Source: Triparma columacea | Taxonomy: Eukaryota; Sar; Bolidophyceae; Parmales; Triparmaceae | Assembly: GCA_030267965.1 (NCBI GenBank) | Contig: BRYA01000066.1 | Coordinates: 18,586-82,585 of the forward strand | Length of the DNA: 64,000 bases | Reading direction: 5' to 3' | Part shown: piece by piece, positions 38,801 through 64,000 of the stretch | Layout of the letters: the number at the start of each line of letters is the position of its first letter | Position numbering within the stretch: position 1 is the first letter of the stretch | Notes under the pieces: model-generated | What the model saw: the letters and a program-made list of their open reading frames with translations, nothing else | Databases searched by the model: none | What the model was told of the DNA's origin: nothing | Position numbers and translations under genes: made by a program

Positions 38801-41800
38801 GGCGCGAGTCCTGCAGCCGATCCCGAGAGGGCGAGCCCAACATCTGACGTGGAAGACAACTGGGAAATGAAGGCCGCGAGAAAGTTAAAAAGGGAGTATG
38901 CTTGGGCCATCCAATCAAGCGAATATGTGAATTCGCAAATGATAGACGAATTTAACGACCTCGTGAAGCTCGTTTTGAAGTTCGGGACGAAGCAGGGCAA
39001 GAGGGTCGGTACAGCAGAAGGCAGCAGTTCGACGAAAAAGGCGAAGAATAGGAAGAAGAAGAAAAAAGGCAAAAAGGCGATTAAGATCGACGATGTCAAC
39101 TTCGAGACGAACAAGTACTTCGACGCCCTGATTGGGAGGCTTATTGAGCACGTTAGGAGGTTGGTTGCAGGTCTCATCGATGGGCTTGATAAATACAACA
39201 TGACAAGCGGTGAAGCTAACGCAGGGCTCATGACAAATTGCCTGTTGGGCTTCAGGAGTTCAGCCCCCTTGGTCTTGCGGTTGCTTCGAAATTGCATTAC
39301 TCAAGCGGGGGTTATGTGGGACGAGGAGCACCTTTTCATCGATGCTGAGAAAAAAAAGATCATAAACGAGAAGAAGAAGGCAAAGATGCAAGAGCTCATG
39401 GTAAAGTGCGGGGCTGCCGACCTCGTCGTCGATTTGCTTGCGGGCTTAGGTGACAGTTCTGCTACATCGTCGAGCGAAGGTGGCGACGAAAACGCTAGAT
39501 CTGGGGTCGTTGGTGGCAGCCACGCTTTGACTGAATACGTGAAGGAGGAGGCACTCAAGTTTGCCATTGAGCTCCTTGATGGAGGAAACAAGGAGGTGCA
39601 AGACAAGGTCTTTATCTACTTACGCAATAACACTAACGCCGCGAGCAAATTCTTCAGTGGTATCCATTCCAGGATTGAGAAGGCCAATCGATGCACAGTT
39701 GCCATCAGAAGGTGGATTGAGTACAGGTTGCAGGACAACGCTGAGATGACTAGCGTCGAACAGGAAGGTATCAACGAACTATACTCGGTGAAGGGCGACT
39801 TGAAGGTGGGCTTGATTTTCAAGATGCTGCAGCTCCTTACCGAAGGCCACAACCTGCAAATGCAGAGGCTCCTCGAGGACCAAAGCGTGATTGGACTAAG
39901 CAAGAATAGAGGTCTCGTGAGGGCGGGAGCCAACCTTATTAGCAATAGCGCATTTAGCAAGGCAGCTGTTGAAAGGATGAACCCAGAGAGCCTGGACGAG
40001 ATATGCCAGCTCTTTGACTTCCTTACGGAGTGCGTCCAAGGCCCTTCACTCTCCAACCAAAGGCTCCTAAGCATGACCCAGGTCGCAGAGGCTGCGTCAT
40101 TTATCTTCCAGTGCCAGTTCGGTGACAGGGAAATAAGGCAGGGAACATCAACGGGTGCGACCGAAGACACGGCAGTAAATAGTGACGAGGCAACGCTCAT
40201 TGCGAATAATTCCAAGGTGCTGGAAGTTCGGAGGAAAGGCAACTGCATGAGAAAGCTGAGCTTAGCCGCGGCAAAGATGCTGAATAGTATGCTTGAGGGG
40301 AGAGCTGAAACTAATAGCTGCCCGGTTCATAATTACCTGTGTCAGAAGCTCAACCCGAAGTTGCTCATCGACAGGTGAGTGGCTGTTGCCGACATCATAA
40401 CCAACTTGTTGCACAATATTCTTTTGCATCCTTTATCATAACCCTAACCACAACTCTTTTTGCTCTTCGCAGGCTCACCCTCGCGTACCAAACCTACAAA
40501 CTGTGCCGGAAGAAGCTCGGGAGCTCGCAGTACTTGATCCCGATCCCGCTGCTCAAGTACACTTTCGGGGCAATATACTCTCTCTCCCACGACAAGCTCA
40601 TCTCGGATAGGAAAGCTTTCTTGTCGAGCCAGAAAGAAAAGGCCTTTGATATTGGTATCGAGCTAACGACGCTCCTGATTAGGTGAGAGGTTGAAAGCGC
40701 TTCAGATTTGTTGCCCCTCCTTTTTTCGTGCCCAAAGTTAACCCTTTCGCTTCAATGTACCACCATCGGGCGCACAGGCTTAGCCACGTTGACCCGAAAT
40801 TTGATCCGCACGTGAGCATGGAAATGATTGAGATCGAGGACAACATCACTCACAGAAAGGGGTTCTGGGGAAGGATGATGGCCCTGGTTGTCCCCGCGGG
40901 TGATGAGGAGGACGAGGAGGACGAAGCAAACGTGAGCTTCGGCGGTGAAGAATCAAGGAAGAACCAGCTCGAAAAGACAGAGAGGAAGGCTATTGAAAAG
41001 CACAGGTACGCACAAAAGAAGGCGCTGCACTTTTTCCAGAGCAAACTTAGGGCCATCGAGGTTGTGTGGGGATCGGGGGGTCTTAGTACAGTGTACTTCC
41101 CGATTCCACCAGAGGGCGCGTTCATGAGCGACGAGATAAAGGAGAACATGTTCGTCAATATCGACTACGGAAGCGAAGACAGGGTCAAGGAGCTCATGAA
41201 GCTCGTCCCCGAAGTGCAGGACGAGCTAAAGTGGCACGAGACCCTCGAGAAGCTGAACATACCTCAGAAGCAGAGTACGACAGTACTGAACCAGTTCACC
41301 TTCGTTGTGAGCCTGATCATCAACTTCATTATGATCATCAGCTTGCAATACAAGGGGGCCGAGGAGTCGCCGACCTACAAGGACGAAGAACTGTTCCATT
41401 ACATTGAGATACTTGGCATTGTGAACTGCGTGCTTGCGGCGGCAAAGTGCCTCCACATTGGTGTCTTCAAGCTCCCCATAATTTTGAAGAAGATGCTGAG
41501 GTTCAGAAAGAAGGCGCGCTACTTCAACACAATCAGCGCGGCGGAGAAGGAAGCCGCGCTACTGAGCTCCCTGAAAGTACCCCTTGGTATACTGTCCATG
41601 ATCTTGATATTTTCTCACATCGGCACCGTCGCCTACGGCGACATTTTTGAGGAGGGCCACGCAGGGTACTGGATAAGGGGTGCCTGCTATGTGCTGTTGG
41701 GGATGAGCACGCTGCGCAGCATTCACAAGGTTTCTCAGGCGACCGGGTACCCCACGGCGCTCTTGTTCTGGTACAGCTTTGTATGGCAGAGTGTCGAGAC

Positions 41801-42902
41801 CTTGAAGTTCTATGGCTTCATGTTGGCTTCAGCGATCCTGGGCACGATCTACAGCAGGAAGTACCCGCTCTTCTACAGCCTTCAGCTCTTCACTATCATT
41901 CCAATGAGCCCAACCCTCACATCAGTCATGAGGGCTGTGACGGACCCAGGAAATCAGCTTGTCATGAGCGCCGTATTGGGGCTGATTATCATCTATACAT
42001 TCTCGTTGATAGCCTTCTTCTTTTTCCACAGTTCTGGAACGATGATGAACAATGACCAAGGGTTGAACGAGTGCCATGATATGATCTCTTGCTTGAAGAG
42101 CTTCGTGAGGAACGGTTTGCTCTACGGGGGTGGTATCGGAGACTTTATCAACGGTGATTTGGGCAACTCTCCGGATCTTGACGACGATTTAGGATACTGG
42201 TCCCGTTTGATTTTTGATTTGTCTTTTTTCATCATTGTGATTGTGCTCCTTCTCAATATAATTTTCGGTATTATTCTGGACACGTTCAGTTCCTTGAGGG
42301 AGGCCCAGAACCAAAAGATGGAATTGAAAAACAGCCAGTGCTTCATTTGTGGGTTAGGAAGGGATCTGTTCGAGGATCAGAAGCAGTTGGGAGGGAGAGG
42401 GTGAGTGGGAGGGAAAGGCGAGCAAAGGCGAGCAAACTGCTGTGATACTTTTCGTCCCTACTCCTAACCTTCCTTCTACTTCACGATTCGCTTCGCTCGT
42501 TCAAGGTTCGCCTTTCACATGACCAACGAACACTCCGTCTACGATTACGTGTATTTCACCATCTACTTGAGGAGCAAGCACGACACTGAATTCAACGGGG
42601 CGGAGACGTTCGTCCAGGAGTGTCTTGACAAGGACGACATCAGCTGGATCCCTGAAGGCGTTGCGCTCCAGATTCCTAGGATCGACGTAAACGCGGAGAG
42701 GGAAAAGAGAATGGACGAAATGTTCAGGGGGCTCCGTGAGAGGAGCGACGGAGTTCAGGAAGTGCTGAGCGGGGAGATCGGAAAGGTCAGTTTGATGATC
42801 GAAAGGCAGTTCGGCATGTTCAGGAAGCAGATTGCTTCACTTAAGGAAGAAGTCAAGGCGGTGAAGCAGCAGAATGCAGAGTTGCAAGCCTCAAAGAAGT
42901 AG
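29842..42902 (+). CDS. IP3-receptor/ryanodine-receptor family calcium-release channel
   Basis: Nine exons (29842-30343, 30451-30650, 30787-31115, 31193-31585, 31671-33153, 33260-40374, 40473-40682, 40778-42400, 42506-42902) join to 4083 residues, between IP3R (about 2700) and RyR (about 5000). MIR-like beta-trefoil parts lie at about residues 240-540 (GDTVRFRHLITGKYLVV type) and a RIH domain starts near 740. Near 1060 the IP3R-like motif DDNLPDLTRSAITDLLLVLY occurs, and a RIH-associated region lies near 3200. The C-terminal channel (from about 3590) has six hydrophobic segments, the selectivity filter GGGIGD near 3861 as in RyR, and the last pore helix FFIIVIVLLLNIIFGIILDTF. The end carries the Cys/His motif CFICGL ... 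HMTNEHSVYDY shared by both families, then a coiled coil. It releases Ca2+ from an internal store. Confidence 0.88.
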
Positions 42903-50936: not shown

Positions 50937-51228
50937 AATTTTGGGGTTGGATTTGGAAGGAAAATGGATTTTGCGAATCCAGAACTTCACACTAGTTTGA
51001 CCTTAAACACATCCCACAAGCTTCATTTTCAACTAAATACACATACAATCCCATTCAAACTACACACAGAACACACATCCTCATTTTTAAAACCTCTACC
51101 ACCACGCAAACCCACCAAAATTAATACACCACCTCGAGAACTCGTGTCTCAATTTTTACCCCTTTACAACCCACAAACAACAACAACATGGATGTGAACC
51201 TACACAATCCTCGCAGATATACAACTAG
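50937..51228 (+). other. Putative bidirectional promoter and first exon of the array host transcript
   Basis: This A/C-rich stretch lies between the K+ channel start (minus) and the first array donor CAACTAG|GTGAGA (GT at 51229). A 77-codon ORF (50964-51197, His/Thr/Leu-rich, ending in WM) lies inside but begins only 27 bp from the divergent ATG and has no recognisable domain, so I do not call it a gene. The donor fits the window's consensus and would open the first intron carrying unit 1. Confidence 0.45.
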
Positions 51229-51280
51229 GTGAGAATGCAGAGAAAGGAAAACGGGAGAGGGTCATTGTGTCACATTGTTT

Positions 51281-51408
51281 GTTCCGATGAAGAGATAACC
51301 CAAAAATGGAAATCTATTTTATGATATGCGACGTGCATTTCGGAGACACGCGCTATGATATAACGCCAGCAAGGGTCAAATGGCTGCCAAACGACCATAC
51401 TGAGGAAC
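51281..51408 (+). ncRNA. Box C/D snoRNA-like RNA, unit 1
   Basis: Stem GTTCC/GGAAC, box C-like CCGATGA, box D CTGA. Segment before the D'-like ATGA: AAAAATGGAAATCTATTTT. Loop pentamer GGGTC. This is the first intron of the array; its guide window is two to four bases longer than most. Confidence 0.5.
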
Positions 51409-51607
51409 AAACACATGACAACAACAAGCTGTTATTACTGACACTGTAATTTCCTGTAGAAGAACCACCTAACACACATCTTCAATCGCACTCGATATTC
51501 GCTTCCCCCCTCTCCTCCCACACACACACACACATTCGACGATGCAGGTAAGGAAGGAAAGAAGGAGAGGTGTCACGAAGTTGTTTGAGACGTTGAATGT
51601 TGTTTTG

Positions 51608-51732
51608 TTCCGATGAAGAGATAACCCACAAAGCGATATGGCCTATGATATGCGACGTGCATTTCGGGGACACGCGCTATGATTAAACGCCAGCAATCTG
51701 CAAATGGCTGCCAAACGACCATACTGAGGAGC
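51608..51732 (+). ncRNA. Box C/D snoRNA-like RNA, unit 2
   Basis: Same frame as unit 1; the 3' stem strand is GGAGC. Variable segment ACAAAGCGATATGGCCT; pentamer TCTGC. Confidence 0.5.
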
Positions 51733-51930
51733 AAACACATGACAACACTGAGCTGTTATACTTGACACTACCTTCCTGTCGAAGAATCACCTAACACACA
51801 TCTTCAATCGCACTCGACATTCGCTTCCCCCCTCTCCTCCAACACACACACACACACATTCGACGATGCAGGTAAGGTTGGAAAGAAGGAGAGGTGTCAC
51901 GAAGTTGTCTTGAGACGTTGAATGTTGTTT

Positions 51931-52057
51931 GTTCCGCTGATGTAGATAACCCACAATCAGGTCTTGCTTATGATATGCGACGTGCATTTCGGAGACACGC
52001 GCTATGATTAGACGCCAGCAAGCGATAAATGGCTGCCAAATGACCATACCGAGGAAC
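51931..52057 (+). ncRNA. Box C/D snoRNA-like RNA, unit 3
   Basis: Box C region reads GCTGATGTA, closer to the RTGATGA consensus, but box D reads CCGA. Variable segment ACAATCAGGTCTTGCTT; pentamer GCGAT. Confidence 0.42.
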
Positions 52058-52224
52058 AATATACAACAAAAAAACAACAAGAACTGTGACAAGGACGATA
52101 ACAGCGACGCTTTACACAGCCCTAACACAATACACTTTCGCCCTTCGCAACGGCTGGCACTATGGAACGTAGGTAAGATCAGAACAGGGAACATGAGATT
52201 GAGGGGTCTTGTTTTGTTGTGGAC

Positions 52225-52349
52225 GTTCCGATGAAGAGGTAACCCACAATTGAAGTAGGGTATGATATGCGACGTGCATTTCGGAGACACGCGCAATGAT
52301 TTAACGCCAGCAAGACTTAAATGGCTGCCAAACGACCATACTGAGGAAC
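52225..52349 (+). ncRNA. Box C/D snoRNA-like RNA, unit 4
   Basis: Canonical frame of the array. Variable segment ACAATTGAAGTAGGGT; pentamer GACTT. Preceded by a type C junction. Confidence 0.5.
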
Positions 52350-52508
52350 AATGACAATACGCAAGAATAATATGGTTACAAACACAGGACGAACGTAGGA
52401 ATCTAACACTTGCGTTTCCCTGCTTCTCACAGCCCACCACGATGATGCAGGTAAGATGTAAAGAAGTGGGTGGGCGTGATTTCGTTTCGTTGCTGTTTAT
52501 TTTTGTTT

Positions 52509-52634
52509 GTTCCGATGAAGAGATAACCCATAAAAGTTTTTGGAGTATGATATGCGACGTGCATTTCGGAGACACGCGCAATGATTAAACGCCAGCAAGT
52601 CAGAAATGGCTGCCAAACGACCATACTGAGGAAC
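52509..52634 (+). ncRNA. Box C/D snoRNA-like RNA, unit 5
   Basis: Canonical frame. Variable segment ATAAAAGTTTTTGGAGT, partly similar to unit 8; pentamer GTCAG. Confidence 0.5.
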
Positions 52635-52816
52635 AATATACAACAAACAACAAACAAATACGCAAGAATAATATGGTTACAAACACAGGACAAACGCCGA
52701 GGAATCTAACACTTGCGTTTCCCTGCTTTTCACAGCCCTGCACGATGATGCAGGTAAGATGTAAAGAAGTGGTTCGGCGTGATTTTGTTTTCTTGGATGT
52801 TTGTTTTGCGTGGTTC

Positions 52817-52942
52817 GTTCCGATGAAGAGATAACCCAAAAGTGTATTTATGTTATGATATGCGACGTGCATTTCGGAGACACGCGCTATGATTTAACGC
52901 CAGCAAGTCATAAATGGCTGCCAAACGACCATACTGAGGAAC
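52817..52942 (+). ncRNA. Box C/D snoRNA-like RNA, unit 6
   Basis: Canonical frame. Variable segment AAAAGTGTATTTATGTT; pentamer GTCAT. Confidence 0.5.
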
Positions 52943-53167
52943 AAACACATGACAACACCGAGCTGTTATACTTGACACTGTACCTTCCTGTTGAAGAATC
53001 ACCTAACACATATCTTTTATCGCACTCGACATTCCTCCCCCCCTCCTTCCTCCCCCCCCCTCCCCCTTCCTCCTCCTCCCTCCCGCACACAATTGACGAT
53101 GCAGGTAAGGAAGGAAGGAAAGAAGGAGAGGTGTCACGAAGTTGTTTTTAGAGTTGAATGTTGTTTT

Positions 53168-53293
53168 GTTCCGATGAAGAGGTAACCCATAAAGCAGCGT
53201 TATGTATGATATGCGACGTGCATTTCGGAGACACGCGCTATGATTAAACGCCAGCAAGCTCCAAATGGCTGCCAAACGACCATACTGAGGAAC
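53168..53293 (+). ncRNA. Box C/D snoRNA-like RNA, unit 7
   Basis: Canonical frame. Variable segment ATAAAGCAGCGTTATGT; pentamer GCTCC. Confidence 0.5.
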
Positions 53294-53460
53294 AATAACA
53301 ACAAATAGTCAAGAATAATATGGTTACAAACACAGGATAAACGCTGAGGAATCTAACACTTGCGTTACCCTGCTTCTCACAGCCCACCACGATAATGCAG
53401 GTAAGATGTAAAGAAGTGGGTCGGCGTAATTTTCGTTTTCGTGGCTGTTTGTTGTTGTTC

Positions 53461-53585
53461 GTTCCGATGAAGAGATAACCCACAAAGCTTTTTGGATATG
53501 ATATGCGACGTGCATTTCGGAGACACGCGCAATGATATAACGCCAGCAAAGGTTAAATGGCTGCCAAACGACCATACTGAGGAAC
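53461..53585 (+). ncRNA. Box C/D snoRNA-like RNA, unit 8
   Basis: Canonical frame. Variable segment ACAAAGCTTTTTGGAT; pentamer AGGTT. Confidence 0.5.
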
Positions 53586-53752
53586 AATATCAACAAACAA
53601 ATACGCAAGAATAATATGGTCACACACACAGGACAAACGCTGAGGAATCTAACACGCGCGTTTCCCTGCTTCTCAGAGCCCCCCACGATGATGCAGGTAA
53701 GATGTAAAGAAGTGGGTCGGTGTGATTCCGTTTCGTAGCTTTTTGTTTGTTC

Positions 53753-53878
53753 GTTCCGATGAAGAGATAACCCATAATGCAATGAAGGCTATGATATGCG
53801 ACGTGCATTTCGGAGACACGCGCTATGATTAGACGCCAGCAACCGATAAATGGCTGCCAAACGACCATACTGAGGAAC
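53753..53878 (+). ncRNA. Box C/D snoRNA-like RNA, unit 9
   Basis: Canonical frame. Variable segment ATAATGCAATGAAGGCT; pentamer CCGAT. Confidence 0.5.
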
Positions 53879-54049
53879 AATACACAACAAACAAATACTC
53901 TTGAATAATACGGGAACAAACACAGGACAAACGCCGAGGAATCTAACACTTGCGTTTCCCTGCTTCTCACAGCCCACCACGATGATTCAGGTAAGATGTA
54001 AAGAAGTGGGTCTGCGTGATTTCGTTTTGATGGCTGTTTGTTTTTGTTT

Positions 54050-54179
54050 GTTCCGATGAAGAGGTAACCCACAAGTAGAATGTAATGTAATATGATATGC
54101 GACGTGCATTTCGGAGACACGCGCTATAATTAGACGCCAGCAATTGGAAAATGGCTGCCAATCGACCATACTGAGGAAC
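54050..54179 (+). ncRNA. Box C/D snoRNA-like RNA, unit 10
   Basis: The longest guide window (21 nt); its last 17 nt are GTAGAATGTAATGTAAT. Pentamer TTGGA. The C'-like word is ATAATTA instead of ATGATTA. Confidence 0.48.
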
Positions 54180-54348
54180 AATACACAACAAACAAACATT
54201 CAAGAATACTAGGTTACAAACACAGGACAAACACCAAGGAATCTAACACGCGCGTTCCCTGCTTCTCACAGCCCCCCACGATGATGCAGGTAAGATGTGA
54301 AGAAGTGGGTGGGCGTGATTTCGTTGTCATGGCTGTTTGTTTTTGTAC

Positions 54349-54474
54349 GTTCCGATGAAGAGATAACCCATAAGCGAAGTGAAGTCATGATATGCGACGT
54401 GCATTTCGGAGACACGCGCAATGATTAAACGCCAGCAAACCTCAAATGGCTGCCAAACGACCATACTGAGGAAC
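54349..54474 (+). ncRNA. Box C/D snoRNA-like RNA, unit 11
   Basis: Canonical frame. Variable segment ATAAGCGAAGTGAAGTC; pentamer ACCTC. Confidence 0.5.
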
Positions 54475-54638
54475 AATACAATACACAACAACAAGAACTG
54501 TGACAAGGACGATAACAGCGACGCTTTACACAGCCCTAACACAATACACTTTCGCTCTTTGCAACGGCTGGCACTATGGAACGTAGGTAAGATGAGAACA
54601 GGGAACATGAGATTGAGGGGTCTTGTTTTGTTGTGGAC

Positions 54639-54762
54639 GTTCCGATGAAGAGATAACCCAAAATTGGTTTAGCTATGATATGCGACGTGCATTTCGGAGA
54701 CACGCGCTATGATTAAACGCCAGCAAGTCTTAAATGGCTGCCAAACGACCATACTGAGGAAC
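54639..54762 (+). ncRNA. Box C/D snoRNA-like RNA, unit 12
   Basis: Canonical frame after a type C junction. Variable segment AAAATTGGTTTAGCT; pentamer GTCTT. Confidence 0.5.
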
Positions 54763-54919
54763 AATACACAACAAACAAATATCCTTGAATAATATGGTTA
54801 CAACCACAGAACAATCTAACACGCGCGGTTCCGTGCCTTTCACCGCCCCCTAACGATGATGCAGGTAAGATGTAATGAAGTGGGTCGGCGTGATTTCGTT
54901 TCGTTGCTTTTGTTTGTTC

Positions 54920-55045
54920 GTTTCGATGAAGAGATAACCCAAAACTCGAATACATGTTTGATATGCGACGTGCATTTCGGAGACACGCGCTATGATATAA
55001 CGCCAGCAAAGGATAAATGGCTGCCAAACGACCATACTGAGGAAC
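54920..55045 (+). ncRNA. Box C/D snoRNA-like RNA, unit 13
   Basis: Stem strand GTTTC and D'-like TTGA are both variants. Variable segment AAAACTCGAATACATGTT; pentamer AGGAT. Confidence 0.47.
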
Positions 55046-55216
55046 AATACACAACAAACAAATACGCAAGAATAATATGGTTACAACAAACACGGAACAA
55101 ACGCTGAGGAATCTAACACTTGCGTTTCCCTGCTTCTCACAGCCCGCCACGATGATGCAGGTAAGATGTAAAGAAGCGGGACGGCGTGATTTCGTTTTCG
55201 TAGCTTTTGTTTGTTC

Positions 55217-55342
55217 GTTCCGATGAAGAGGTAACCCACAAGCAGACTAGGGTTATGATATGCGACGTGCATTTCGGAGACACGCGCTATGATTTAACGC
55301 CAGCAATTTGCAAATGGCTGCCAAACGACCATACTGAGGAAC
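55217..55342 (+). ncRNA. Box C/D snoRNA-like RNA, unit 14
   Basis: Canonical frame. Variable segment ACAAGCAGACTAGGGTT; pentamer TTTGC. Confidence 0.5.
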
Positions 55343-55539
55343 AATACACATGACAACACTGAGCTGTTATACTTGACACTTGTACCTTCCTGTCGAAGAA
55401 TCACCTAACACACATCTTCAATCGCACTCGACATTCGCTTCCCTCCTCTCCTCCAACAAACACACACATTCGATGATACAGGTAAGGAAGGAAAGAAGGA
55501 GAGGTGTCACGAAGTTGTTTGAGACGTTGAATGTTGTTT

Positions 55540-55665
55540 GTTCCGATGAAGAGATAACCCACAAGGCTAGCAAAGCTATGATATGCGACGTGCATTTCGG
55601 AGACACGCGCTATGATTAAACGCCAGCAATTGCAAAATGGCTGCCAAACGACCATACTGAGGAAC
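55540..55665 (+). ncRNA. Box C/D snoRNA-like RNA, unit 15
   Basis: Canonical frame. Variable segment ACAAGGCTAGCAAAGCT; pentamer TTGCA. Confidence 0.5.
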
Positions 55666-55848
55666 AATACACAACAAACAAATACTCTTGAATAATATGG
55701 TTACAAACACAGGACAAACGCCGAGGAGTCTAACACTTGCGTTTCCCTGCTTCTCACCGCTTCTCAAAGCCCCCCACGATGATGCAGGTAAGATGTAAAG
55801 AAGTGGGTTGGCGTGATTTCGTTTTCACTTGGCTTTTTGTTTTTGTTC

Positions 55849-55974
55849 GTTCCGATGAAGAGGTAACCCACGACAGGTCATTGTGTATGATATGCGACGT
55901 GCATTTCGGAGACACGCGCAATGATATAACGCCAGCAATTGTAAAACGGCTGCCAAACGACCATACTGAGGAAC
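55849..55974 (+). ncRNA. Box C/D snoRNA-like RNA, unit 16
   Basis: Canonical frame. Variable segment ACGACAGGTCATTGTGT; pentamer TTGTA, followed by AAACGG instead of AAATGG. Confidence 0.5.
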
Positions 55975-56147
55975 AATACAATACACAACAAACAAATACT
56001 CGAGAATAATATGGTTACAAACACGGAACAAACGTCGAGGAATCTAACACACGCATTTCCTTGCTTCTCACAGCCCCCCTCGATGATGCAGGTAAGATGT
56101 AAAGAAGTGGGTCATTTTGATTTCGTTTTCGCTGTTTGTTTTTGTCC

Positions 56148-56273
56148 GTTCTGATGAAGAGATAACCCACAAATCCATGAAGGATATGATATGCGACGTG
56201 CATTTCGGAGACACGCGTAATGATTAGACGCCAGCAAATTACAAATGGCTGCCAAACGACCATACTGAGGAAC
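56148..56273 (+). ncRNA. Box C/D snoRNA-like RNA, unit 17
   Basis: Box C reads TCTGATGA, containing the full TGATGA core. Variable segment ACAAATCCATGAAGGAT; pentamer ATTAC. Confidence 0.55.
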
Positions 56274-56437
56274 AATATACAAAAACAACAACAAGAACTG
56301 CGACAAGGACGATAACAGCGACGCTTTACACAGTCCTAACACAATACACTTTCGCTCTTCTCAACGGTTGGCAATATGGAACTCAGGTAAGAAGAGAACA
56401 GAGAAATGAGATGGAGAGGTCTTGTTTTGTTGTGGAC

Positions 56438-56573
56438 GTTCCGATGAAGAGATAACCCACAATTTTTGATGGGATATGATATGCGACGTGCATTTCGGAG
56501 ACACGCGCTATGATTAACCGCCAGCAAGATCTAAATGGCTGCCAAACGACCATACTGAGGAACTATAACAATG
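56438..56573 (+). ncRNA. Box C/D snoRNA-like RNA, unit 18
   Basis: Canonical frame after a type C junction; C' is followed by ACCGCC instead of AACGCC. Variable segment ACAATTTTTGATGGGAT; pentamer GATCT. Confidence 0.5.
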
Positions 56574-56737
56574 CACAACAAACAAATAGTCAAGAATAAT
56601 ATGGTTACAAACACAGGACAAACACCGAGGAATCTAACACGCGCATTTCCCTGCTTTCACAGCCCCCCACGATGATGCAGGTAAGATGTAAAGAGTGGGT
56701 CGGCGTGATTTCGTTTTCGTGGCTTTTGTTTTTGTTC

Positions 56738-56862
56738 GTTCCGATGAAGAGATAACCCAAAAATCGTTTGTAGTATGATATGCGACGTGCATTTCGGAGA
56801 CACGCGCTATGATTAAACGCCAGCAAAAGTTAAATGGCTGCCAAACGACCATACTGAGGAAC
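56738..56862 (+). ncRNA. Box C/D snoRNA-like RNA, unit 19
   Basis: Canonical frame. Variable segment AAAAATCGTTTGTAGT; pentamer AAGTT. Confidence 0.5.
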
Positions 56863-57024
56863 AAACAAACAAATACTCTTGAAAGATATGGTTGCAAACA
56901 CAGGACAAACGCCAAGGAATCTAACACTTGCGTTTCCCTGCTTCTCACAGCCCCCCACGATGATGCAGGTAAGATGTATAGAGGTGGATCGGCGTGATGT
57001 CGTTTTCGTGCTTTTTGTTTGTTC

Positions 57025-57149
57025 GTTCCGATGAAGAGATAACCCACAAATGAGTTCACTTATGATATGCGACGTGCATTTCGGAGACACGCGTAATGAT
57101 TTAACGCCAGCAAACCTCAAATGGCTGCCAAACGACCATACTGAGGAAC
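57025..57149 (+). ncRNA. Box C/D snoRNA-like RNA, unit 20
   Basis: Canonical frame. Variable segment ACAAATGAGTTCACTT; pentamer ACCTC (also in unit 11). Confidence 0.5.
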
Positions 57150-57315
57150 GATATACAACAAACAAATACTCAAGAATAATGGTTACAAGCACAGGACAAA
57201 CGACGAGGAATCTAACACTTGCGTTTCCCTGCTTCTCACAGCCCCCCACGATGATGCAGGTAAGATGTAAAGAAGTGGGTTGGCGTGATTTCGTTTCTTT
57301 GCTTTTTGTTTGTTC

Positions 57316-57440
57316 GTTCCAATGAAGAGGTAACCCAAACATCTCTTGTCTTATGATATGCGACGTGCATTTCGGAGACACGCGCAATGATTTAACGCCA
57401 GCAAGGACAAAATGGCCGCCAAACGACCATACTGAGGAAC
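57316..57440 (+). ncRNA. Box C/D snoRNA-like RNA, unit 21
   Basis: Box C reads CAATGAA. Variable segment AAACATCTCTTGTCTT; pentamer GGACA. Confidence 0.48.
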
Positions 57441-57663
57441 AAACACATGACAACAACGAGCAGTTATACTTGTTACTGTACCTTCCTGTCGAAGAATCAC
57501 CTAACACACATCTTCAATCGCACTCGACATTCCTCCCCCCCTCCTTCCCCCTCCCCTCTCCCCCTTCCTCCTCCCCCCTCCCACACACAATTGACGATGC
57601 AGGTAAGGAAGGACGGAAATAAGGAGAGGTATTGCAAAGTCTTTGAGACGTTGATTGTTGTTC

Positions 57664-57789
57664 GTTCCGATGAAGAGATAACCCACAAATTTTGTAGGTT
57701 TATGATATGCGACGTGCATTTCGGAGACACGCGCTATGATTAGACGCCAGCAACTTGAAAATGGCTGCCAAACATCCATACTGAGGAAC
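57664..57789 (+). ncRNA. Box C/D snoRNA-like RNA, unit 22
   Basis: Canonical boxes; the usually invariant ACGACCATA before box D reads ACATCCATA. Variable segment ACAAATTTTGTAGGTTT; pentamer CTTGA. Confidence 0.48.
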
Positions 57790-57987
57790 AAACACATGAC
57801 AACAACGAGCTGTTATACTTGACACTGTACCTTCCTGTCGAAGAATCACCTAACACACATCTTCAATCGCACTCGATATTCGCTTCCCTCCTCTCCTTCC
57901 ACACACACACACATTCGACGATGCAGGTAAGGAAGGAAGGAAAGAAGAAGAGGTATTGCAACGTCTTTGAGTGTTGAATGTTGTTTT

Positions 57988-58114
57988 GTTCCAATGATGT
58001 AAATATACCACAAGCTACTAGGACGTATGATATGCGACGTGCATTTCGGAGACACGCGCAATGATTAAACGCCAGTAATCGAGAAATGGCTGCCAAACGA
58101 CCATACTGAGGAAC
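57988..58114 (+). ncRNA. Box C/D snoRNA-like RNA, unit 23
   Basis: Divergent subtype with box C ATGATGT, one mismatch from consensus, followed by AAATATACC. Variable segment ACAAGCTACTAGGACGT; pentamer TCGAG. Confidence 0.55.
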
Positions 58115-58291
58115 AATAACAATACACAACAAACAAATACGAAAAAATAATATGGGAACAAACTCACGGCAAACGAAGAGGAATCTAACACGTTCATTCC
58201 CCTGCTTCTCACAGCCCACCACGACGATGCAGGTAAGATGTAAAGAAGTGGGTCGGCGTGATTTCGTTTCCTTGGCTGTTTGTTTTTGTTC

Positions 58292-58417
58292 GTTCCGATG
58301 AAGAGATAACCCACAAGGACAATAAAAATATGATATGCGACGTGCATTTCGGAGACACGCGCTATGATTAGACGCCAGCAAAGGTGAAATGGCTGCCAAA
58401 CGACCATACTGAGGAAC
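58292..58417 (+). ncRNA. Box C/D snoRNA-like RNA, unit 24
   Basis: Canonical frame. Variable segment ACAAGGACAATAAAAAT; pentamer AGGTG. Confidence 0.5.
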
Positions 58418-58585
58418 AATATACAACAAACAAATATGCAAGAATAATATGGTTACAAACACAGGACAAACACCGAGGAATCTAACACTTGCGTTTCCCT
58501 GCTTCTCACAGCCCACCACGATCATGCAGGTAAGATGTAAAGAAGTGGGTCGGCGTGATTTCGTTTCGTTGCTTTTTGTTTGTTA

Positions 58586-58710
58586 GTTCCGATGAAGAGG
58601 TAACCCAAAAGTCAAAGTTTCAATGATATGCGACGTGCATTTCGGAGACACGCGCTATGATTAAACGCCAGCAAGACATAAATGGCTGCCAAACGACCAT
58701 ACTGAGGAAC
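58586..58710 (+). ncRNA. Box C/D snoRNA-like RNA, unit 25
   Basis: Canonical frame. Variable segment AAAAGTCAAAGTTTCA; pentamer GACAT. Confidence 0.5.
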
Positions 58711-58872
58711 AATACACAACAAACAAATACGCAACAATGAATATGGTACAAACCAGTTCCAAGAATCTAACACTTGCGTTCCCCTGCTTTTCACCGCCCA
58801 CCGCGATCATGCAGGTAAGATGTAAAGAAGTTGGTCGGAATGATTTCGTTTTCTTGGCTGTTTGATTTGTTC

Positions 58873-58997
58873 GTTCCGATGAAGAGATAACCCACAAGTT
58901 TTGAGTAATATGATATGTGACGTGCATTTCGGAGACACGCGCTATGATTAAACGCCAGCAACCATCAAATGGCTGCCAAACGACCATACTGAGGAGC
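58873..58997 (+). ncRNA. Box C/D snoRNA-like RNA, unit 26
   Basis: The hairpin strand reads GTGACGTG; the 3' stem strand is GGAGC. Variable segment ACAAGTTTTGAGTAAT; pentamer CCATC. Confidence 0.48.
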
Positions 58998-59220
58998 AAA
59001 CACATGACAACAACAAGCTGTTATACTTGACACTGTACCTTCCTGTCGAAGAATCACCTAACACACATCTTCAATTGCACTCGACATTCCTCCCCCCCTC
59101 CTTCCTCCCCCCCCCTCCCCCTTCCTCCTCCCCCCTCCCACACACAATTGACGATGCAGGTAAGGAAGGAAGAAAAGAAGGTGAGGTATTGCAACGTCTT
59201 TGAGATGTTGATTGTTGTTT

Positions 59221-59347
59221 GTTCCAAGGATGTAAATATACCACAACACGAGCACCTTTATGATATGCGACGTGCATTTCGGAGACACGCGCTATGATTA
59301 AACGCCAGCAACTTGTAAATGGCTGCCAAACGACCATACTGAGGAAC
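59221..59347 (+). ncRNA. Box C/D snoRNA-like RNA, unit 27
   Basis: Divergent subtype, box C region AAGGATGTAAATATACC. Variable segment ACAACACGAGCACCTTT; pentamer CTTGT. Confidence 0.45.
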
Positions 59348-59518
59348 AATACGCAACAAACAAACGCTCTTGAATAATACCGGAACAAACTCACTGCAAA
59401 CGCCAAAGAATCTAACACTTACGTTTCCCTGCTTCTCACAGCCCCCCACGATGATGCAGGTAAGATGTAAAGAAGTGGGTCGGCGTGGTTTCGTTTTCTT
59501 GGCTGTTTGTTTTTGTTC

Positions 59519-59643
59519 GTTCCGATGAAGAGATAACCCACAGAAGAGTTGGTATATGATATGCGACGTGCATTTCGGAGACACGCGCAATGATTAAGCG
59601 CCAGCAACACCTAAATGGCTGCCAAACGACCATACTGAGGAAC
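59519..59643 (+). ncRNA. Box C/D snoRNA-like RNA, unit 28
   Basis: Canonical frame. Variable segment ACAGAAGAGTTGGTAT; pentamer CACCT. Confidence 0.5.
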
Positions 59644-59810
59644 AATACACAACAAACAAATTCTCTTGAATAATTGGTTCAAACACAGGACAAATGCATT
59701 TGGAATCTAACACTTGCGTTTCCCTGCTTCTCACAGCCCACCATGATGATGCAGGTAAGATGTAAAGAAGTGGGTGGGCGTGATTTCGTTTTCGTGGCTT
59801 TTGTTTGTTC

Positions 59811-59936
59811 GTTCCGATGAAGAGAGAACCCACGAAAGGAGATCTCTTATGATATGCGCCGTGCATTTCGGAGACACGCGCTATGATTAAACGCCAGCAA
59901 CCACTAAATGGCTGCCAAACGACCATACTGAGGAAC
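59811..59936 (+). ncRNA. Box C/D snoRNA-like RNA, unit 29
   Basis: The hairpin strand reads GCGCCGTG, with C at the bulge position. Variable segment ACGAAAGGAGATCTCTT; pentamer CCACT. Confidence 0.5.
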
Positions 59937-60106
59937 AATGCATAACAAACAAATACTCGAGAATAATATGGTTACAAACACAGGACAAACGCCGAGGAAT
60001 CTAACACTCGCGTTTTTCTTGCTTCTCACAGCCCACCACGATGATGCAGGTAAGATGTAAAGAAGTGGGTCTGCGTGATTTCGTTTTCTTGGCTTTTTGT
60101 TTGTGC

Positions 60107-60234
60107 GTTCCGATGAAGAGGTAACCCACAAAAGTAGTTGATATATGATATATGCGACGTGCATTTCGGAGACACGCGCTATGATTAAACGCCAGCAACC
60201 TTCAAATGGCTGCCAAACGACCATCCTGAGGAAC
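60107..60234 (+). ncRNA. Box C/D snoRNA-like RNA, unit 30
   Basis: Canonical boxes with an extra AT after the D'-like ATGA. Variable segment ACAAAAGTAGTTGATAT; pentamer CCTTC. Confidence 0.5.
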
Positions 60235-60435
60235 AATACACATGACAACAACAAGCTGTTATTACTGACACTGTACCTTCCTGTCGAAGAATCACCTAAC
60301 ACACATCTTCAATCGCACTCGATATTCGCTTCCCCCCACTCCTCCCACACACACATACACATTCGACGATGCAGGTAAGGAAGGAAGAAAAGAAGGTGAG
60401 GTATTGCAACGTCTTTGAGATGTTGAATGTTGTTT

Positions 60436-60561
60436 GTTCCGCTGATGTAAATACCACAACAAGGAAGACGTGTATGATATGCGACGTGCATTTCGGAGAC
60501 ACGCGCAATGATTTAATGCCAGTAAGGCCTAAATGGCTGCCAAACGACCATACTGAGGAAC
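60436..60561 (+). ncRNA. Box C/D snoRNA-like RNA, unit 31
   Basis: Divergent subtype, box C region GCTGATGTAAATACC. Variable segment ACAACAAGGAAGACGTGT; pentamer GGCCT. Confidence 0.5.
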
Positions 60562-60760
60562 AAACACATGACAACAACGAGCTGTTATACTTGACACTTG
60601 TACCTTCCTGTCGAAGAACCACCTAACACATATCTCCAATCGCACTCGATATTCGCTTCCCCCCTCTCCTCCCACACACACACACACATTCGACGATGCA
60701 GGTAAGGAAGGAAAGAAGGAGAGGTGTCACGAAGTTGTCTTGAGAGTTGAATGTTGTTTT

Positions 60761-60885
60761 GTTCCGATGAAGAGATAACCCACAGAAGGTCTTTGATATG
60801 ATATGCGACGTGCATTTCGGAGACACGCGCTATGATTAAACGCCAGCAAAGCGGAAATGGCTGCCAAACGACCATACTGAGGAAC
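60761..60885 (+). ncRNA. Box C/D snoRNA-like RNA, unit 32
   Basis: Canonical frame. Variable segment ACAGAAGGTCTTTGAT; pentamer AGCGG. Confidence 0.5.
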
Positions 60886-61105
60886 AACACATGACAACAA
60901 CGAGCTGTTATACTTGACACTTGTACCTTCCTGTCGAAGAATCACCTAACACACATCTTCAATCGCACTCGACATTTATCCCCCCCTCCTTCATCCTCCC
61001 CTCTCCCCCTTCCTCCCCCCCCCTTCCACACACAATTGACGATGCAGGTAAGGAAAGAAGGAAATAAGGAAATAAGCAAAGTCTTTGAGACGTTGAATGT
61101 TGTTT

Positions 61106-61232
61106 GTTCCAAGGATGTAAATATACCACAACTTAATGAAGGGTATGATATGCGACGTGCATTTCGGAGACACGCGCTATGCTTCAACGCCAGCAAGCTG
61201 TAAATGGCTGCCAAACGACCATACTGAGGAAC
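61106..61232 (+). ncRNA. Box C/D snoRNA-like RNA, unit 33
   Basis: Divergent subtype, box C region AAGGATGTAAATATACC; the C'-like word is ATGCTTC. Variable segment ACAACTTAATGAAGGGT; pentamer GCTGT. Confidence 0.42.
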
Positions 61233-61403
61233 AATATACAACAAACAAATACTCGAGAATAATATGGTTACAAACACAGGACAAACGCCGAGGAATCTAA
61301 CACGCTTGTTTCCCTGCTTCTCACAGCCCACCACGATGATGCAGGTAAGATGTAATGAAGTGGGTCGGCGTGATTTAGTTTTCTTGGCTGTTTGTTTTTG
61401 TTC

Positions 61404-61529
61404 GTTCCGATGAAGAGATAACCCTTAAGCATGCTTGAGTTATGATATGCGACGTGCATTTCGGAGACACGCGTAATGATTAAACGCCAGCAATGCCAAA
61501 ATGGCTGCCAAACGACCATACTGAGGAAC
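61404..61529 (+). ncRNA. Box C/D snoRNA-like RNA, unit 34
   Basis: Canonical frame. Variable segment TTAAGCATGCTTGAGTT, itself palindromic at AAGCATGCTT; pentamer TGCCA. Confidence 0.5.
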
Positions 61530-61694
61530 AATACAAAACAAATAGTCAAGAATAATATGGTTACAAATACAGGACAAACGACGAGGAATCTAACACTTGC
61601 GTTTCCCTGCTTCTCACAGCCCCCCACGATGATGCAGGTAAGATGCAAAGAAGTGGGTCGTTGTGATTTCGTTTTCGTTGCTTTTTGTTTGTTC

Positions 61695-61820
61695 GTTCCG
61701 ATGAAGAGATAACCCATAATTGTGGTTGGAATATGATATGCGACGTGCATTTCGGAGACACGCGCTATGATTAAACGCCAGCAACTTGAAAATGGCTGCC
61801 AAACGACCATACTGAGGAAC
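61695..61820 (+). ncRNA. Box C/D snoRNA-like RNA, unit 35
   Basis: Canonical frame. Variable segment ATAATTGTGGTTGGAAT; pentamer CTTGA (also in unit 22). Confidence 0.5.
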
Positions 61821-61991
61821 AATATACAACAAACAAATACGCAAGAGTAATATGGTTATAAACACAGGACAAACGCCGAGTAATCTAACACTTACGTTTC
61901 CCTGCTTCTCACAGCACCCCACGATGATGCAGGTAAGATGTGAAGAAGTGGGTCGTCGTGATTTCGTTTCCGTTGCTGTTTGTTTTTGTAC

Positions 61992-62116
61992 GTTCCGATG
62001 AAGAGATAACCCACAAGCCAGATGTTTTATGATATGCGACGTGCATTTCGGAGACACGCGCAATGATTAAACGCCAGCAACCCTCAAATGGCTGCCAAAC
62101 GACCATACTGAGGAAC
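61992..62116 (+). ncRNA. Box C/D snoRNA-like RNA, unit 36
   Basis: Canonical frame. Variable segment ACAAGCCAGATGTTTT; pentamer CCCTC. Core identical to unit 37. Confidence 0.5.
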
Positions 62117-62285
62117 AATACGTACATAACAAACAAATACGCAAGAATGATATGGTAAACACAGGACAAACGCCGAGGAATCTAACACTTGCGTTTCCCT
62201 GCTTCTCACAGCCCACCATGATGATGCAGGTAAGATGTAAAGAAGTGGGTGGGCGTGATTTCGTTTCGTTGCTTTTTGTTTGTTC

Positions 62286-62410
62286 GTTCCGATGAAGAGA
62301 TAACCCACAAGCCAGATGTTTTATGATATGCGACGTGCATTTCGGAGACACGCGCAATGATTAAACGCCAGCAACCCTCAAATGGCTGCCAAACGACCAT
62401 ACTGAGGAAC
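62286..62410 (+). ncRNA. Box C/D snoRNA-like RNA, unit 37
   Basis: The core is identical to that of unit 36, including both variable windows; a recent tandem duplicate. Confidence 0.5.
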
Positions 62411-62578
62411 AATACACAACAAGCGAACACGCAAGAATAATATGGTTACAAACACAGGACAAACGCCGAGGAATCTAACACTTGCGTTTCCCTGCTTCTC
62501 ACCGCCCACCACGATCATGCAGGTAAGATGTAAAGAAGTGGGTCGGCGTGATTTCGTTTTCGCTGTTTGTTTTTGTCC

Positions 62579-62704
62579 GTTCCGATGAAGAGGTAACCCA
62601 CAATTGAAGAGCCTCTATGATATGCGACGTGCATTTCGGAGACACGCGCAATGATTAAACGCCAGCAAATGAGAAATGGCTGCCAAACGACCATACTGAG
62701 GAAC
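62579..62704 (+). ncRNA. Box C/D snoRNA-like RNA, unit 38
   Basis: Canonical frame. Variable segment ACAATTGAAGAGCCTCT; pentamer ATGAG. Confidence 0.5.
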
Positions 62705-62874
62705 AATACACAACAAACAAATATTCAAGAATACTAGGTTACAAACACAGGACAAACGACGAGGAATCTAACACGTGCATTTCCCTGCTTCTCACAGCCC
62801 CCCACGATGATGCAGGTAAGATGTATAGAGGTGGGTTGGCGTGATTTCATTTTCTTGGCTGTTTGTTTTTGTTC

Positions 62875-62999
62875 GTTCCGATGAAGAGGTAACCCACAAA
62901 TGTAACTTCCTTATGATTGCGACGTGCATTTCGGAGACACGCGTAATGATATAACGCCAGCAACCGTCAAATGGCTGCCAAACGACCATACTGAGGAAC
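62875..62999 (+). ncRNA. Box C/D snoRNA-like RNA, unit 39
   Basis: D'-like ATGA is followed by TTGCG instead of TATGCG. Variable segment ACAAATGTAACTTCCTT; pentamer CCGTC. Confidence 0.48.
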
Positions 63000-63169
63000 A
63001 ATACACAACGAACAAATAGTCAAGAATAATATGGTTACAAACACAGGACAAACGCCAAGGAATCTAACACTTTCGTTTCCCTGCTTCTCACAGCGCCAAC
63101 CACGATGATGCAGGTAAGATGTAAAGAAGTGGGTCGGCGTGATTTTGCTTTCGTGGCTTTTGTTTGTTC

Positions 63170-63295
63170 GTTCCGATGAAGAGAAAACCCACAAAGAAAC
63201 TTGAGGTATGATATGCGACGTGCATTTCGGAGACACGCGCTATGATTTAACGCCAGCAAGGGTCAAATGGCTGCCAAACGACCATACTGAGGAAC
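63170..63295 (+). ncRNA. Box C/D snoRNA-like RNA, unit 40
   Basis: Canonical frame. Variable segment ACAAAGAAACTTGAGGT; pentamer GGGTC (also in unit 1). Confidence 0.5.
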
Positions 63296-63466
63296 AATAT
63301 ACAACAAAGAAACACGCAAGAATAATATGGTTACAAACACAGGACAAACGCCGAGGAATCTAACACTTGCGTTTGCCTGCTTCTCACAGCCCACCACGAC
63401 GATGCAGGTAAGCTGTAAAGGAGTGGGTGGGCGTGATTTCGTTTTCTTGGCTGTTTGTTTTTGTTT

Positions 63467-63592
63467 GTTCCGATGAAGAGATATCCCACAATCACTATTT
63501 TGTTATGATATGCGACGTGCATTTCGGAGACACGCGCTGTGATTAGACGCCAGCAACGACAAAATGGCTGCCAAACGACCATACTGAGGAAC
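63467..63592 (+). ncRNA. Box C/D snoRNA-like RNA, unit 41
   Basis: Canonical boxes; the C'-like word is GTGATTA. Variable segment ACAATCACTATTTTGTT; pentamer CGACA. Confidence 0.5.
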
Positions 63593-63762
63593 AATACACA
63601 ACAAGCGAACACGCAAGAATAATTTGGTTACAAACACAGGACAAACGCCGAGGAATCTAACACTTGCGTTTCCCTTGCTTCTCACAGCCCCCCACAATGA
63701 TGCAGGTAAGATGTAAAGAAGTTGGTGGGCGTGATTTGGTTTTCGTTGATTTTTGTTTGTTC

Positions 63763-63888
63763 GTTCCGATGAAGAGGTAACCCATAAGTTAACAGGGTAT
63801 ATGATACGCGACGTGCATTTCGGAGACACGCGCTATGATTAAACGCCAGCAAGTTTGAAATGGCTGCCAAACGACCATACTGAGGAAC
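63763..63888 (+). ncRNA. Box C/D snoRNA-like RNA, unit 42
   Basis: Canonical boxes. Variable segment ATAAGTTAACAGGGTAT; pentamer GTTTG. Followed by a type C junction segment cut by the window end. Confidence 0.5.
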
Positions 63889-64000
63889 AATATACAACAA
63901 AAACAACAACAAGAACTGTGACAAGGACGATAACAGCGACGCTTTACACAGCCCTAACACAATACACTTTCGCTCTTTGCAACGGCTGGCACTATGGAAC

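Follow-up and report, generated by a model that had tools for sequence, protein, structure and literature searches.

An array of 42 box C/D-like RNA units with two hypervariable segments in Triparma columacea, and its dispersed relatives

The array and its genome-wide family

The window analysed here is the final 64 kb (64,000 nucleotides; positions 18586 to 82585) of a contig of Triparma columacea (BRYA01000066.1, in the 37.85 Mb, 789-contig assembly GCA_030267965.1). At 51281..63888 on the plus strand it carries an array of 42 units, each about 125 nucleotides (nt) long, which resemble box C/D small nucleolar RNAs (snoRNAs). The units were recognised as core matches with no more than six substitutions, and their ends were then placed; they measure 124-130 nt (126 nt in 21 and 125 nt in 12 of the 42) and are separated by spacers of 153-225 nt. 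A preliminary description of this DNA had given the same number and size of units, and these figures stand; it had the array begin at 51229, and the first unit begins at 51281. The contig (82,585 bases) ends with the window, in the last spacer, so that the array is cut off and possibly longer than seen.

Related units occur throughout the genome. An 18-nt core, ATGCGACGTGCATTTCGG, has 302 exact matches and the same pattern reversed has none; a 27-nt core allowing three mismatches or fewer finds 358 copies (reversed control, 0), both arrayed and single. By our tally of the places listed, the family is spread over more than 80 contigs. The single host transcript proposed in the preliminary description may hold for the array and not for the dispersed family. 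Two hundred and twenty-two distinct keys were sampled, of which 217 units could be aligned, and about 140 of the 358 genomic copies lie outside this sample; the comparisons below use the 217 or subsets of them (206 units for which 165 nt downstream were available, 143 with enough flank, and 200-214 in the guide tests).

The anatomy is illustrated by unit 2 (51607..51732, plus strand, as are all of its features). The 5′ arm of the terminal stem, GTTCC (51607..51611), faces 51728-51732, which reads GGAGC in this unit and usually GGAAC. Box C (51613..51619; AUGAAGA here, alignment columns 36-43) is followed by a 12-nt hypervariable segment, G1 (51632..51643), and, one T further downstream, by a D′-like AUGA (51645..51648), whose columns 98-101 are almost constant (A in 211, T in 216, G in 213 and A in 215 of 217 units). 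The interval between D′ and C′ holds a hairpin, GCGaCGUG/CACGCGC (51652..51677), with a paired probability of 0.97 in 200 model RNAs; where units depart from its usual pairs, a standard pair is kept in 33 of 42 cells by our count. Next come a C′-like box, AUGAUUA (51679..51685; columns 136-153, with AUGAUAU as a variant), and a moderately stable CAGC/GCUG hairpin (51691-51694 and 51707-51710) that would hold a second hypervariable segment of 5 nt, G2 (51697..51701), in its loop. Box D, CUGA (51724..51727; columns 194-197), is nearly invariant. In the spacer after the unit lie a branch-point-like CTAAC (51791..51795) and CAG/GTAAG (51869..51876), apparently an acceptor and a donor juxtaposed around an exon of zero nucleotides; such a site is present in all 41 spacers of the array. 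Genome-wide, the motif surrounding G2 gave 30 + 52 + 52 + 47 = 181 matches.

Across the 217 aligned units most scaffold columns have an entropy below 0.3 bits, and some, at about 0.5-1.4 bits, reflect subtypes. Two blocks are close to saturation, at 1.84-1.99 of 2 bits: the 12 columns of G1 (1.84-1.99) and the five of G2 (1.89-1.99). Their borders are sharp, entropy passing from 0.74 to 1.98 bits and from 1.98 to 0.21 at the left and right edges of G1, and from 0.16 to 1.95 and from 1.99 to 0.04 at those of G2. There are 215 distinct G1 and 188 distinct G2 sequences among the 217 units, G1 being read as shorter than 12 nt in three of them owing to the alignment. Within the array only units 36 and 37 (61992..62410, plus strand) have both segments in common. 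The variable stretch of 12-17 nt noticed earlier thus consists of 12 saturated positions, preceded by three that vary moderately (0.7-1.1 bits); the earlier account recognised one variable segment and missed G2.

A few units depart from this plan. Between fixed columns before the D′-like box, where 17 nt are usual, the units at loci L093 and L038 have 31 and 27 nt respectively, and are possibly rearranged copies. A subtype seen in nine of 217 units (for example L084_1188, L084_1468, L089_608 and L036_4068) has a shortened stretch before G2, which then reads 3 nt.

Kink-turn-like ends and splice signals

The 5′ end of the units has the order GTTCC, one base, box C (AUGAAGA, CUGAUGU, AUGAUGU or AGGAUGU), and the 3′ end has CUGA followed by GGAAC. 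As read from the alignment, these ends would form a stem, a three-base bulge and a GA facing CUGA, that is, a kink-turn with two sheared G-A pairs. The box C residues concerned are almost without exception G (214 of 216), A (216 of 217) and G (216 of 217), and box D is equally constant (C in 216, T in 213, G in 215 and A in 215 of 216). The consensus of box C is RUGAUGA, from which the best forms in the family (AUGAAGA and AUGAUGU) differ by one mismatch and the others by two. The sub-canonical CCGATGA previously taken for box C was out of register by one position, the true box lying one nucleotide further 3′. Each position of the terminal stem GTTCC/GGAAC shows its commonest pair in 201-211 of the 217 units, and at L080 and L090 the stem is changed on both sides. 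The units at L080 and L090 are lone ones on different contigs that share a GC-rich terminal stem and similar flanks and carry different guides. Pairing beyond GTTCC shows a small excess (2.35 base pairs against 2.07 for 100 shuffles, whose maximum was 2.24), on which we do not build.

Splice signals surround the units. Every one of the 31 units with enough flank and no neighbour on its upstream side is preceded by GTRAG on the sense strand, a signal seen in 10 of 31 when the opposite strand is read as a control. Two cases could be followed into host genes: at L073 the exons on either side of a solitary unit join in frame and encode a NUBPL-type P-loop NTPase (Pfam), and at L020 the host exons join in frame across the intron and encode an epimerase-family protein (Pfam). 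The L020 host intron contains one juxtaposed site, and the three alternative internal exons that could be drawn there (115, 112 and 86 nt) all shift the frame.

Among 128 distinct inter-unit spacers, 125 contain [CT]AGGTRAG, the conservation of letters within the 125 being partly a matter of construction. Reading on from the nearest CTRAC, the first AG to be met is that of this site in 96 of the 125, from which we conclude that the acceptor directly adjoins the donor. Forty spacers are of the type that might accommodate an 18-nt exon; the A of the CACAG that such an exon requires is present in only 25 of them, as against CAG/GTAAG in all 40. At the level of sequence the sites therefore have the form of zero-nucleotide exons, and with splice sites so placed a tandem array could occupy an intron and yield one lariat per RNA, leaving the message no longer than before. 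Just before unit 1, a short ATG-containing stretch ending in CTAG/GTGAG (51188-51228) is a possible first exon of the gene that hosts the array. Judged on these features, the family is of C/D type by its ends and intron-borne by its splice signals. The guide library on a C/D scaffold suggested in the preliminary description is upheld in its C/D ends, the D′-like AUGA following the variable block and the intron location, and is modified by G2, by the apparent zero-nucleotide exons and by the dispersal of the family.

Guides, flanks and candidate targets

How guides change relative to their surroundings was examined in the 206 units followed by 165 nt of intron sequence, identity being measured across at least 130 nt. 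All 21,115 pairs average 3.2 matches in the 12 positions of G1. Thirty-nine pairs have downstream introns at least 96% identical: the five at 98% or more average 2.4 matches of 12 and the other 34 average 3.0. Relaxing the threshold to at least 95% gives 76 pairs, 14 of which are also at least 90% identical in the upstream sequence and 5′ scaffold; G1 in these 14 averages 2.9 matches of 12 and never reaches 10, the closest pairs listed coming mostly from one array, L032. Units L032_6236 and L032_3361, for instance, are identical over 80 nt upstream and in all 26 nt of the 5′ scaffold and 98.2% identical over 165 nt downstream, with matches at 3 of 12 positions in G1 and 3 of 5 in G2. At least 11 of the 12 G1 positions are shared by only three of the 21,115 pairs, each inside one array. 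In the array of the window the units have a single box C subtype, and the three spacer types between them (A, B and C) follow one another in many different orders.

Searches for targets began with ribosomal RNA (rRNA), for which yeast 18S + 25S stood in as a proxy for the species' own, a search for which had given no 5.8S match. Of 212 guides compared with this proxy, 42 score 9.5 or more, none of them perfectly; six column-shuffled sets give 30-49 and the reversed guides 37. Nor was there any excess over chance against U6 and U2, so that the rRNA and small nuclear RNA targets that the preliminary description would have looked for find no support in these comparisons. When two guides were searched against the whole genome, perfect complements beyond the unit itself numbered 5 for one and 4 for the other, compared with 5 and 0 for the reversed sequences; one of these complements lies in locus L021. 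Twelve nucleotides are therefore not unique in this genome. Twelve plus five could be, which is a reason to consider bipartite recognition. Among the loci behind the matches listed in the search for a G1-G2 spacing are repeated coding-like stretches that look, on visual inspection, like C2H2 zinc-finger units in tandem.

Within and between the RNAs, pairing of G1 with G2, of G1 with its own intron flanks and of guides with one another was nowhere above chance. One coupling between non-adjacent columns of G1 and G2 (z 5.7, p about 0.03 after correction, by our estimate) was not used, nor was the accessibility of G2, which at 0.598 is slightly over that of five shuffles (0.553-0.592) and under that of uniform random sequence (0.639). 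The idea that guides are complements of coding sequence was dropped: their TA depletion is coding-like, yet trinucleotide models fit non-coding DNA better.

Elsewhere in the window, a transfer RNA gene lies at 1523-1607; its 85-nt match to a 71-position model implies an intron or a long variable arm. Positions 31555-42404 hold consecutive long frames with MIR, RIH, RIH-associated and ion-transport domains, a calcium channel gene of the IP3/ryanodine-receptor-like kind. The closest protein found for its last frame is 68% identical and nameless.

Interpretation and relation to known systems

On balance, and with only moderate confidence, we favour a genome-wide, intron-encoded family of box C/D-type RNAs forming orphan ribonucleoproteins (RNPs), with guides diversified towards many non-ribosomal RNAs. 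The constant scaffold would supply kink-turn ends (the stem GUUCC/GGAAC with boxes C and D), where C/D proteins (Snu13/15.5K, Nop56/58 and fibrillarin) presumably bind, and an internal element of D′, hairpin and C′. Each copy would add a recognition sequence of its own, made up of G1, placed upstream of D′ where C/D RNAs have an antisense element of about 10-20 nt, and G2 in a hairpin loop. Arrayed RNAs appear to sit each alone in an intron, with neighbouring introns joined by zero-nucleotide exons (YAG/GTAAG); once transcribed, such an array could be removed by recursive splicing and every lariat trimmed to one RNA. G1, aided by G2, would most likely direct the RNPs to many RNAs other than rRNA (messenger RNAs (mRNAs) or pre-mRNAs), and the outcome there might be 2′-O-methylation, or control of splicing or stability.

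A number of observations weigh against this picture. Of the 37 cells that depart from the usual terminal stem, only about 20 still pair by our count, the D′ and C′ boxes (AUGA; AUGAUUA or AUGAUAU) are degenerate, and three extra nucleotides, UAU, separate D′ from the hairpin stem. The G2 hairpin is paired in models with a probability of only 0.59, and G1 in model RNAs is no more accessible than column-shuffled guides (0.476 against 0.466-0.479). On the splicing side, of the 31 units with no neighbour downstream only 20 are followed by a pyrimidine tract with YAG, as against 10 of 31 in the control; in 16 of the 125 spacers no more than 19 nt separate the nearest CTRAC from the site, which makes 'first AG' a weak test there, and an 18-nt exon is possible in 23 of the 125. 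In 287 kb of the species' own DNA (less than 1% of the genome), G1 has seven perfect 12-mer complements, compared with 6.6 in shuffles. Complements of 10 nt number 423, more than in any of 50 column shuffles (mean 320, maximum 402), an excess that is not significant under a Markov control (339 sites, mean 302, with 14 of 100 as high), and the same DNA gave no preferred G2 offset or bipartite targets at fixed spacing. In Rfam, the sole match in the whole window at the gathering score is the transfer RNA and none falls on the units; at E<=10, 51270-53000 gave matches only far below gathering scores. An exact 22-mer search for relatives in IMG/VR found no match.

The contrast between guides and flanks bears on how the family has arisen. 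Simple drift of unconstrained positions fails, because the adjoining intron, itself largely unconstrained, retains 95-98% identity between units with unrelated guides; flanks as variable as the guides, which the preliminary description named as a sign of drift, are thus not what is seen. Probably exchange between copies keeps scaffold and spacers alike, and selection keeps the guides different. It is also conceivable, if unlikely, that guides are actively diversified, those of new copies being replaced or hypermutated by a targeted mechanism to give a continually renewed repertoire with a logic akin to that of CRISPR or antibodies. The near-identical pair L032_6236 and L032_3361, differing at 9 of 12 positions in G1 and 2 of 5 in G2, speaks for such a process, as does the lack of intermediate stages, the numbers of pairs with 9 and 10 matches (15 and 2) lying near our binomial estimate for random pairs. 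Exchange that spares the guides yields the same picture, however; the many orders in which spacer types A, B and C are combined, with box C of a single subtype, are a sign of recombination through the scaffold, and most of the closest pairs listed come from the single array L032. Exchange is therefore the likelier cause, and the data do not decide. The most far-reaching version, in which over 350 RNPs of C/D type share a scaffold and carry actively renewed guides of 12 + 5 nt, replaced faster than the flanking intron mutates, arise from recursively spliced exonless arrays and are aimed at cellular or invading transcripts, strikes us as doubtful.

Could the family be a dispersed intronic repeat without function, its two variable blocks merely unconstrained? 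Its many copies on more than 80 contigs with a near-identical scaffold would fit, as would the want of any target found and of an accessibility signal in G1. We hold this to be improbable, since the intron adjoining unrelated guides stays 95-98% identical, the variable blocks are sharp-edged, and the scaffold is kept in lone units with unlike flanks among the loci listed; both splice signals are present in 13 of 20 lone units. Similarly improbable is a structured RNA class that is C/D-like only at its ends and whose two variable blocks bind one bipartite target in some other way: the degenerate D′ and C′ boxes agree with it, and a second, loop-borne variable block is not a known feature of C/D guides, but the positions of the sheared and closing pairs of a C/D kink-turn are satisfied. 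Least probable, in our estimation, is a set of canonical rRNA-methylation snoRNAs expanded on one scaffold. C/D-type ends and an intron location are what such RNAs would have, and in the main subtype the 8 nt that end just before box D are complementary to a segment of 18S, a match with a chance of about 1 in 12 for one 8-mer; this match is broken in the CAACCATC subtype, however, and points to 18S position 1119, which is not known to be methylated, and the guides fit the yeast proxy no better than shuffles do, none of them perfectly.

If the RNPs of the favoured reading are functional, they would constitute a guide set of C/D type that is unusually large, is not directed at rRNA and has a single scaffold diversified to saturation, and the role of orphan C/D RNAs could be tested on hundreds of natural guides at once. 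The apparent zero-nucleotide exons suggest a way in which tandem intronic RNAs could multiply within a gene and leave its message undisturbed. In the portions of the open-licence PubMed Central literature covered, no report of arrays like this one was found.

The SNORD115 and SNORD116 arrays, too, consist of tandem C/D RNAs that lie singly in the introns of a host transcript and are orphan with respect to rRNA. The likeness drawn to them in the preliminary description holds to that extent; their guides are largely conserved, whereas here nearly every copy differs, single copies occur as well, and the dispersal and the second variable block, G2, set the family apart. The class I RNAs of dictyostelids are likewise numerous and combine conserved ends with a variable part, but are shorter and not of C/D type. 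Intronic snoRNA clusters have reportedly been described in Chlamydomonas.

In the excerpts available of an account of Ostreococcus tauri, 131 snoRNAs are listed, with genes that are single-copy save for three exceptions (PMC7671301); this unicellular alga shares intron-encoded, clustered C/D RNAs with the present family, and those excerpts mention no common scaffold with variable guides. The ratchet points of recursive splicing in Drosophila (PMC8605326) likewise have a juxtaposed acceptor and donor. They lie in long introns, in contrast to the sites described here, which occur once per about 300 nt, between small RNAs. Closest in this respect are the intronic snoRNA polycistrons of Candida and Debaryomyces, where, according to the passages available (PMC5033589), exons of zero size or one base separate neighbouring snoRNA introns and recursive splicing removes them; those are small clusters of unlike snoRNAs, whereas the present array is composed of dozens of copies of one scaffold.

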